Shown here in pieces: positions 17,359-28,319 of a DNA stretch of 64,000 nucleotides (its first letter is position 1; each line of letters starts with the position of its first letter). The DNA lies in the NCBI RefSeq assembly GCF_031178195.1, contig NZ_JAPSJL010000009.1, positions 62,001 to 126,000 on the forward strand, read 5' to 3'. A model generated the notes under the pieces. It was not told the origin of the DNA. It made no database searches and saw nothing but the letters and a program-made list of their open reading frames with translations. The DNA comes from Zhihengliuella sp. (lineage in GTDB: Bacteria; Actinomycetota; Actinomycetes; Actinomycetales; Micrococcaceae). Position numbers and translations under genes: made by a program.

Positions 17359-17563
17359 CGCCGACCGATGGCCCCGCCCGGCGCGGAGGGAGGCCCGGGT
17401 CGACAGGCGCTCGCGGGTGGCCTATCGTTAATGGGTGCCGCTCAGCGGTGCACCGAAGCTGTCGGGGCCGGGAATGAAACCGGCGTCGAGGGCGTTACAC
17501 TGAAGGTCTGCGGTTCCGGCCGCGGAGGTCGCCGACGGTTCGCCGTCGTTGACAACAGAATAC

Positions 17564-26956: not shown

Positions 26957-27042
26957 TCTTCCTCCAACTGGTTGAGGCGACGTTGTCGGCACTAGTCTTG
27001 CAGATTTTCCCGGCGCCGGGCCCCAGCATGACCGGTACTCAG

Positions 27043-27068
27043 GGAATAGCCAGCGTGGGTGGTGCGTT
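27043..27068 (+). promoter_or_regulatory. SigR-type promoter upstream of sigR
   Basis: GGAAT (27043-27047, inside GGGAAT) and GTT (27066-27068, inside GTTG) are separated by exactly 18 nt. This is the SigR/SigH promoter consensus GGAAT-N18-GTT. Transcription would begin near 27075, upstream of the long sigR start at 27137. Confidence 0.75.
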
Positions 27069-27136
27069 GATCCGAGCAGACCGGGCGGATTCCGCACGGT
27101 GGCGGACCGGCAGGAGCGACGAGGAGCGAGGTGGGC

Positions 27137-27853
27137 ATGAGCGCAGGAGGAGTCCTGTTGGAGGCCCCGGGCCCGAGCGTAGACTGGGCGGCGATGACCG
27201 ACTCAACAGATGGCCTGATCACCGCCGACTCCGACGGCGCCGCGGCGGAGACCGACGCCGAGCGGGATGCCCGGTTCGAGGCCGACGCGCTGCAGTACGT
27301 GGACCAGTTGTACTCGGCCGCGCTGCGCATGGCACGGAATCCCAGCGACGCCGAGGACCTGGTCCAGGAGGCGTACGCCAAGGCCTACTCCGCGTTCCAC
27401 CAGTACAAGCCGGGGACCAACCTCAAGGCCTGGCTCTACCGGATCCTGACCAACACGTACATCAACCTCTACCGGAAGCGGCAGCGCGAGCCGCAGCGCT
27501 CCAGCACCGACACGGTGGAGGAGTGGCAGATGGCCCAGGCCGCCGAGCACACGTCCACGGGACTGCGCTCGGCCGAGGCGGAGGCCCTGGACCACCTGCC
27601 GGACTCCGCGGTGAAGGACGCGCTGGCCGCCATTCCGGAGGAATTCCGGCTCGCGGTCTACTTCACGGACGTCGAGGGGTACGCCTACAAGGAGGTCGCC
27701 GAGATCCTCGGCGTGCCGATCGGCACCGTCATGTCGCGCCTCCACCGCGGGCGCAAGCAGCTGCGCGAGCTCCTGGCCGACTACGCGGCGGAGCGCGGGC
27801 TGGGGCGGAGCAGCGGCAAAAAGACCACGGGCACTGAGCAGGAGAAGAAGTAA
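27137..27853 (+). CDS. sigR: Thiol-stress sigma factor SigR/SigH type (group IV)
   Basis: An ECF sigma factor. The core starts at ATG 27194 (219 residues) just after a TAGACT box (27180-27185), while ATG 27137 with GAGG at 5 nt gives a 238-residue form. Region 2 (about 25-95 of the core) includes [10 protein letters not shown] and [12 protein letters not shown]; region 4 (about 140-205) includes P-E-E-F-R and [18 protein letters not shown]. This is the SigR/SigH subtype paired with a zinc anti-sigma factor. The stop overlaps rsrA by one base (TAATG). The two starts fit a stable constitutive form and a longer induced form. Confidence 0.92.
27180..27185 (+). promoter_or_regulatory. Second sigR promoter -10 (housekeeping)
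   Basis: TAGACT ends 8 nt before ATG 27194. It would produce a leaderless or near-leaderless message for the short sigma form. Confidence 0.5.
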
Positions 27854-28119
27854 TGGGCGACTGCAACTCGCTGGGCGATTGCGATGACACGCGCATCGAG
27901 CGCCTCTATGAGTACCTGGACGGCGCGCTGTCCAAGGAGGACCTCAACGATGTGCGGCGCCACCTCGAGCATTGCTCGGAGTGCGCGCAGGAGTACGACC
28001 TCGAGTGCATCATCCGCTCGGTGGTGAAGCGCAGCTGCACGGATACGGCGCCGCAGACGCTCAAGAGCCGCATCATGATGCGGATCAGCGAGATCCGGAT
28101 CGAGGTCGGCCACGGCTGA
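27853..28119 (+). CDS. rsrA: Zinc-binding redox-sensing anti-sigma factor RsrA
   Basis: An 88-residue ZAS-family anti-sigma factor that holds SigR inactive until its thiols are oxidised. The H-x3-C-x2-C zinc motif is H37, C41, C44, with further cysteines at 4, 10, 52 and 62. This pattern closely parallels Streptomyces RsrA, where residues near 11, 41 and 44 form the switch. The ATG shares a base with the sigR stop, so the two are made in a coupled ratio. A strong bidirectional hairpin follows. Confidence 0.93.
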   Translation: MGDCNSLGDCDDTRIERLYEYLDGALSKEDLNDVRRHLEHCSECAQEYDLECIIRSVVKRSCTDTAPQTLKSRIMMRISEIRIEVGHG

Positions 28120-28244: not shown

Positions 28245-28319
28245 CTAGCTGTTGGGACGCTTGCCGTGGTTCGCCCCGCCACGCTTGCGGTCGCGACGCT
28301 TGCGAGCTCGCTTGCTCAT
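28245..28319 (-). CDS. 50S ribosomal protein bL37 (24 residues)
   Basis: A 24-residue highly basic peptide, M-S-K-R-A-R-K-R-R-D-R-K followed by a Gly pair and ending A-N-H-G-K-R-P-N-S. This closely matches mycobacterial bL37, a small actinobacterial large-subunit protein with the same R-x-R-K-K-R-D-R-K opening and A-N-H-G-K-R-P-N ending. GAAGGAG lies 5 nt ahead of the ATG. It is too short for ordinary gene-length filters. Identity comes from near-complete similarity over its length. Confidence 0.9.
   Translation of the reverse strand: MSKRARKRRDRKRGGANHGKRPNS

Follow-up and report, generated by a model that had tools for sequence, protein, structure and literature searches.

A likely promoter-selected two-isoform sigR-rsrA operon in a genome of the Micrococcaceae

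Introduction

The sigmaR/sigmaR' feedback is already known from Streptomyces. In S. coelicolor, an upstream promoter driven by SigR yields sigmaR', which carries a 58-residue extension, and the short SigR of Streptomyces begins at a GTC codon behind AGGAGGTG; IF3 represses this start and thereby keeps SigR below RsrA (PMC5472188). The same paper sees no evidence for the GTC start outside Streptomyces. The upstream start of S. coelicolor lies between sigRp1 and sigRp2, a second promoter serves the short form, and rsrA has a ribosome site of its own and begins in an overlap with the sigR stop (PMC5472188 and PMC4921905). The locus described here resembles S. coelicolor in these last arrangements, the second promoter being a putative one, and in the consensus of the SigR-driven promoter, which is identical, but there are differences in the extension, which has 58 residues in S. 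coelicolor and 19 (or 21) here, and in the start of the short form, which in Streptomyces is the GTC behind AGGAGGTG and here is an ATG by a predicted 5' end, without a ribosome site.

In M. tuberculosis, sigE utilizes three promoters and gives several protein forms (PMC10027907). It is alike in that promoter choice sets the protein form and one mRNA is leaderless. However, according to the available part of that source, oxidative stress acts there through SigH on an internal promoter and leads to shorter forms, whereas here the outermost promoter is the stress promoter and would lead to the longer form. In C. glutamicum, the sigH-rshA locus is alike in having several SigA-type promoters upstream of sigH, while the anti-sigma gene has a promoter to itself (PMC3489674), but its transcripts start 22, 89, 93 and 131 nt upstream of a single start codon, and the available text describes no two-start layout. 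Literature searches turned up no account of the two-start layout reported below, in which a -10 element ends 8 nt before an inner ATG (N8); Kim et al. 2009 and 2012 may describe the conservation of the extension.

At the present locus, promoter choice alone seems to fix the protein form, the inner start being without a ribosome site. The base-exact spacing makes isoform choice, near-leaderless translation and the sigma/anti-sigma balance testable by single-base changes, and the comparison of layouts suggests a way in which the two arrangements may have arisen one from the other.

Orthologue samples

The window is the whole 64-kb stretch of DNA analysed, which belongs to a genome of 3.15 Mb from the Micrococcaceae. 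A sigR match was present in 59 of 59 genomes searched, the window's own genome counted. Altogether, 138 orthologues were gathered (58 + 80); two without an anchor (L054 and L058) and three duplicates were removed, leaving 133, which comprise 30 loci of the Streptomyces type (29 from Streptomyces and one from Actinacidiphila) and 103 others. At the class level, 70 loci were taken from 70 of 151 matching genomes (the 30 best matches and 40 spread over families); nine were without an anchor and two were already in the set, so that 59 were added and the total came to 192. The Streptomyces-type loci among these 192 number 38, namely the 30 above and eight of family f37 with the identical sequence layout. 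The 120 loci with the inner-start layout were drawn from the same 192 and were selected for T, A and T at positions -14, -13 and -9 from the inner ATG.

Results and Discussion

Layout of the sigR-rsrA operon

The elements named in a first-pass annotation of this DNA, namely a SigR box, an outer ATG, the hexamer TAGACT and an inner ATG, are all read directly in the sequence at the positions assigned to them (Table 1). The sigR product, scanned as the long form, is an ECF sigma factor of the SigR/SigH type, scoring 356 bits with TIGR02947 against a cut-off of 251.55. The product of the following gene belongs to the RsrA family (TIGR03988, 91.6 bits against a cut-off of 62.5) and contains HLEHCSEC, which we take to be the HxxxCxxC motif of RsrA. 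The rsrA start could be placed in 87 of the 120 loci, the first suitable codon being chosen automatically; 78 of these starts are preceded by a Shine-Dalgarno core, and in 71 the overlap with the sigR stop is at offset -1.

Table 1. Features of the sigR-rsrA locus, with positions counted from the first letter of the window
Feature	Position	Strand	Basis or remark
p2, SigR-type promoter, GGAAT-N18-GTT, GGAATAGCCAGCGTGGGTGGTGCGTT	27043-27068	+	consensus match and spacing conservation
Predicted p2 transcript start, A after C	27078	+	9 nt after GTT; from box-driven genes of the same genome
Shine-Dalgarno GAGG for the outer ATG	27128-27131	+	read from the sequence and congeners
Outer start ATG and 19-codon extension of the long form	27137-27193	+	alternative start GTG 27131 (21 codons)
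p1, putative -10 element TAGACT	27180-27185	+	conserved; encoded within the Val-Asp-Trp codons of the extension
Predicted p1 transcript start, G	27193	+	pyrimidine-purine rule; one base before the inner ATG
sigR, long form, 238 aa	from 27137	+	same stop as the short form
sigR, short form, 219 aa	27194-27853	+	TIGR02947
Shine-Dalgarno AGGAG of rsrA, within the sigR 3' end	27840-27844	+	read from the sequence
rsrA, zinc-binding anti-sigma factor	27853-28119	+	TIGR03988; ATG overlaps the sigR stop (TAATG)

The upstream SigR-type promoter

The p2 box is separated from ATG 27137 by 68 nt. A genome-wide search for GGAAT-N18-GTT, proposed as a check in the first-pass annotation, gives 30 matches, against 15 at N17 and 19 at N19, and the bare pattern proves to be common. 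Pooled over N17 to N19, these are 64 matches against five in a backwards-read control, which differs in its stop-like letters. Within the window, the pattern occurs twice where 0.37 matches are expected, and at least two matches occur in 9 of 100 shuffles. By itself, the bare GGAAT-N18-GTT pattern is weak evidence, and its frequency would suit the alternative that the box at p2 is a chance match and that a different promoter acts upstream. This alternative is extremely unlikely in view of the spacing-specific conservation upstream of sigR: within 320 nt upstream in the 120 orthologues with the inner-start layout, GGAAT and GTT are separated by N18 in 86 and by N19 in 17, and each other spacing from 8 to 30 occurs in at most three. 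The p2 box therefore stands above chance by its conserved position and spacing, and it is further taken as real because boxes in the genome also precede genes of the trxB, msrA and clpB types. With GGAA[TC] and N18 or N19 allowed within 400 nt upstream, 113 of the 120 orthologues carry the box, which bears out the SigR-consensus promoter upstream of sigR that the annotation had described and which is also the first element of the sigmaR/sigmaR' arrangement.

In this genome, the start codon lies 9 nt after GTT in four box-driven genes and 10 nt after it in two (L240, L244, L247, L060, L070 and L087 together), and the transcript start of p2 is predicted at A27078 on account of these six genes. 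The same spacing makes leaderless transcripts probable for some members of the SigR regulon.

The inner promoter and its fixed spacing

The hexamer TAGACT ends 8 nt before the inner ATG 27194. In 94 of the 103 non-Streptomyces orthologues, exactly 8 nt separate TAnnnT from an in-frame ATG; near relatives are included in this count, and the loci are not mutually independent. At other spacings, the pair occurs in at most five of the 103 each, with none at N6, N7, N9 or N10, and in the two other frames, TAnnnT reaches at most six at any spacing and two at N8. Over all 192 loci, TAnnnT-N8-ATG is present in 120, and each other spacing from 0 to 20 accounts for at most five. The layout is not universal, as it is found in 26 of the 59 further class-level loci, from many families. 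With ATG it is absent in nine of the 103 orthologues; five of these belong to the window's family or to named close relatives, and one of the nine carries the N8 layout with GTG. Among the families without it are the Streptomyces-type family and, in the five loci counted, family f22.

For the short form, a putative second promoter is represented by a conserved -10 element at a fixed spacing; no -35 box is recognisable for it in the window, and the column counts over the orthologues point to none. The housekeeping-type TAGACT box of the first-pass annotation holds in position and conservation, though without the -35 box. In addition, no AT-rich site of the WblC type is seen before p1, the stretch 27140-27179 being GC-rich. 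The lack of a -35 box would fit a reading in which TAGACT is no promoter, TAnnnT merely reflects conservation of the encoded amino acids, and upstream promoters supply every sigR transcript. Against it, the inner letters of the hexamer vary, with 19 kinds among the 120 loci, and so do the encoded residues (VD, LG, IA, LL and others). Likewise against this reading, other spacings between TAnnnT and ATG are almost absent, and a pyrimidine at -2 with a purine at -1 precedes the inner ATG in 115 of the 120 loci, where the flanking codon positions would predict about 27%. A mere by-product at this site is accordingly a very improbable one, and TAGACT is regarded here as the -10 element of p1.

The same pyrimidine-purine pair, together with the spacing, places the predicted p1 transcript start one base before the ATG, so that the leader of the short sigR mRNA is probably a single base. 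When TAGACT-ATG pairs were counted in four of the genus's five genomes, most had a spacing of N6 (68) or N7 (54). A pyrimidine precedes the ATG in 52 of the 68 and in all 54, respectively, as expected if the A of the ATG begins the mRNA. A preferred cytosine at -1 is named in the available part of PMC4633059. The annotation had called the short sigma leaderless; the AUG is indeed predicted at or near the 5' end, with the qualification that the spacing and the letters at -2 and -1 point to a leader of one base.

The N8 spacing is not unique to sigR. In the window's own genome, three of the 44 matches to TAGACT-N3..14-ATG have N8, 19 have N6 and eight have N7, these being pattern matches and at most putative promoters. 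Four of the genus's five genomes, when pooled, yield 16 N8 matches, 12 of them with a pyrimidine and a purine before the ATG, and four of these 12 are sigR itself. One TAGACT-N8-ATG with a pyrimidine-purine pair and an open upstream frame is situated at position 1238 of L253 (G000:C13:216537); the gene behind it is presumably hisI.

The spacing also bears on the reading frame. With N6, the TAG of TAGACT would be set in frame as a stop, and with N7, AGA or AGG would be read. Both AGA and AGG are rare codons. The N8 spacing thus suits a translated extension. The frame was also considered as the sole cause of N8 and was rejected: 21 of the 120 hexamers do not start with TAG, and 17 of these start with TAC or TAT and would tolerate N6, yet no ATG at N6 or N7 after TAnnnT is found among the non-Streptomyces orthologues.

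The outer start and the N-terminal extension

The outer ATG 27137 and the inner ATG 27194 lie 57 nt, or 19 codons, apart in the same frame. A start at -57 from the inner ATG with an upstream GGAGG or GAGG is present in five of five genomes of the genus, the codon being ATG in the window and GTG in the four congeners. A MAFFT alignment pairs these four GTGs with GTG 27131 of the window, which could be served by AGGAG at 27122-27126; the outer start may be either ATG 27137 or GTG 27131.

In 95 of the 120 loci, GGAA[TC]-N18-GTT lies within the searched stretch, and in these the frame of the outer start could be compared. A Shine-Dalgarno core of at least 4 nt followed by a start open to the inner ATG is found in frame 0 in 80 of 95 loci, in frame 1 in 10 of 95 and in frame 2 in none; with a core of at least 5 nt, the numbers are 52 in frame 0 and one in the shifted frame. 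Frame 1 is the fair control, since in frame 2 the -10 element itself usually supplies a TAG stop (frame 2 has a stop in 87 of 95). An upstream in-frame start with a ribosome site therefore exists between the two promoters, as in the sigmaR/sigmaR' arrangement. Only four of the 120 loci show a Shine-Dalgarno core before the inner ATG, and ATG 27194 of the window is without one.

The amino-acid sequence behind this start behaves differently from the sigma core. In 13 disjoint close pairs, the differences at codon positions 1, 2 and 3 of the extension are 27, 29 and 36 (p = 0.48), and no constraint at the codon level is seen in this test; in the sigma core, the corresponding numbers are 34, 25 and 143 (37 pairs). 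The N-terminal sequences of the extension also diverge widely among orthologues. Both observations would agree with a long mRNA that is SigR-driven and leadered but on which ribosomes start mainly at the inner ATG, giving one protein and an untranslated extension. Against this stand the Shine-Dalgarno core and start found so much more often in frame than in the shifted frame, the start at -57 in all five genomes of the genus, and the inner ATG that is nearly always without a core, and a single protein from both mRNAs is unlikely. In the reading with two proteins, which is preferred here, the start is kept in frame while the amino-acid sequence of the extension is hardly constrained.

A pattern at the N-terminus of the extension (hydrophobic, Leu/Val-like, acidic, Pro) occurs in 21 of 80 sequences, whereas 500 shuffles averaged 7.2 and reached 18 at most; having been picked after looking, it gives only a hint. 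In distant families, the N-terminus is often VLDRP- or LERP-like (L174, L177, L194, L198, L053 and L019), and this motif is a possible recognition tag.

Proposed mechanism

The two-promoter, two-start reading of the first-pass annotation is well supported by the fixed N8 spacing, the SigR box and the in-frame outer start, and a promoter-selected two-isoform sigR-rsrA operon is considered likely. From these elements we infer two mRNA 5' ends, the sigma factors that use them, and two proteins; promoter choice probably sets the form of SigR, as in S. coelicolor. In unstressed cells, the housekeeping polymerase would start at the TAGACT located inside the extension. The resulting p1 mRNA, with its AUG at or one base from the 5' end and without a Shine-Dalgarno sequence, would give only the short SigR. 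RsrA, expressed from its own Shine-Dalgarno sequence and a start overlapping the sigR stop, would keep SigR inactive. Upon thiol oxidation, SigR would be freed and GGAAT-N18-GTT would fire, producing a p2 mRNA whose leader would be about 59 nt long and on which the outer start served by a Shine-Dalgarno sequence would yield a SigR longer by 19 (or 21) residues. By analogy only, the long form may be short-lived and degraded by Clp, as in S. coelicolor.

Comparison with the Streptomyces layout

The parallel with sigmaR/sigmaR' of S. coelicolor is well borne out by the orthologues, although the two inner starts are not the same. A GTC start behind AGGAGGTG is not found at this locus, where the short form begins at ATG 27194. 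GGAGGTGG is present in 38 of 38 Streptomyces-type loci, and TAnnnT-N8-ATG is found within 400 nt in none of the 38. CTGGA[CG]TGG-N6-CTG occurs in 27 of the 38, the matching residues occur in frame in 32 of the 38, and the Streptomyces CTGGACTGGACGGTGCTG pairs by eye with, for example, GTAGACTGGGCGGTGATG of the congener L003. The counterpart of the inner ATG thus seems to lie within the Streptomyces extension, the short form of Streptomyces starting further downstream. The extension is indeed shorter than the Streptomyces one, as the annotation had remarked, but the inner starts are not equivalent, so that it is not a simple shortening.

In a tree of 79 sigma cores, 43 with N8, both layouts are scattered and the N8 label changes at least 11 times; the tree has poor support at 39 of its 73 inner branches and contains one very long branch, and its labels were taken from simple patterns. 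Some non-N8 class-level loci, such as L188, L180, L199 and L202 (families f34, f39, f28 and f46), have a Streptomyces-like ribosome site of the GGAGG type close to where the conserved part of the sigma factor begins.

Taking the constancy of N8 as its one ground, a further suggestion is that the fixed spacing and the one-base leader act as a translation governor, which would keep the short SigR scarce relative to RsrA and replace the IF3-sensitive GTC of Streptomyces; the N8 layout would then be the older one, and CTGGACTGGACGGTGCTG its dead copy in the Streptomyces extension. In E. coli, more IF3 lowers the translation of model leaderless mRNAs, conflicting results also being cited in the available part of PMC9031893, and a leaderless or one-base-leader start could limit SigR for this reason. 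Against the suggestion, infC has no GGAAT box in the match list and other genes share the N8 form, and on balance it is rather doubtful. An IF3 loop in this genome was likewise considered and is without support, as no GGAAT-N17..19-GTT of the genome-wide match list falls in the vicinity of infC; a GGAAC-N18-GTT lies inside infC on the opposite strand.

SigR boxes elsewhere and minor observations

An ORF of at least 50 codons starts within 300 nt of 27 of the 30 N18 boxes in the genome, several of these being doubtful. A Pfam search for 20 of the 30 boxes assigned a family to 18 of the genes and none to two. The genes behind GGAAT-N18-GTT, with names inferred from Pfam families, include trxB, msrA, msrB, clpB, hsp20, guaB, rbpA, and DsbA-like and old-yellow-enzyme kinds. 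The second exact match in the window, at 17471-17496 (+), is not followed within 300 nt by the start of any ORF of at least 50 codons.

Upstream of the SigR box of sigR, TAGTCT within CTAGTCT (26993-26998, +) is kept in five of five genomes of the genus; it may be a further -10-like site or part of the control region of the divergent gene. Downstream of rsrA, a reading frame of 24 codons, MSKRARKRRDRKRGGANHGKRPNS, lies on the minus strand at 28245-28319 and presumably encodes the small actinobacterial ribosomal protein bL37.
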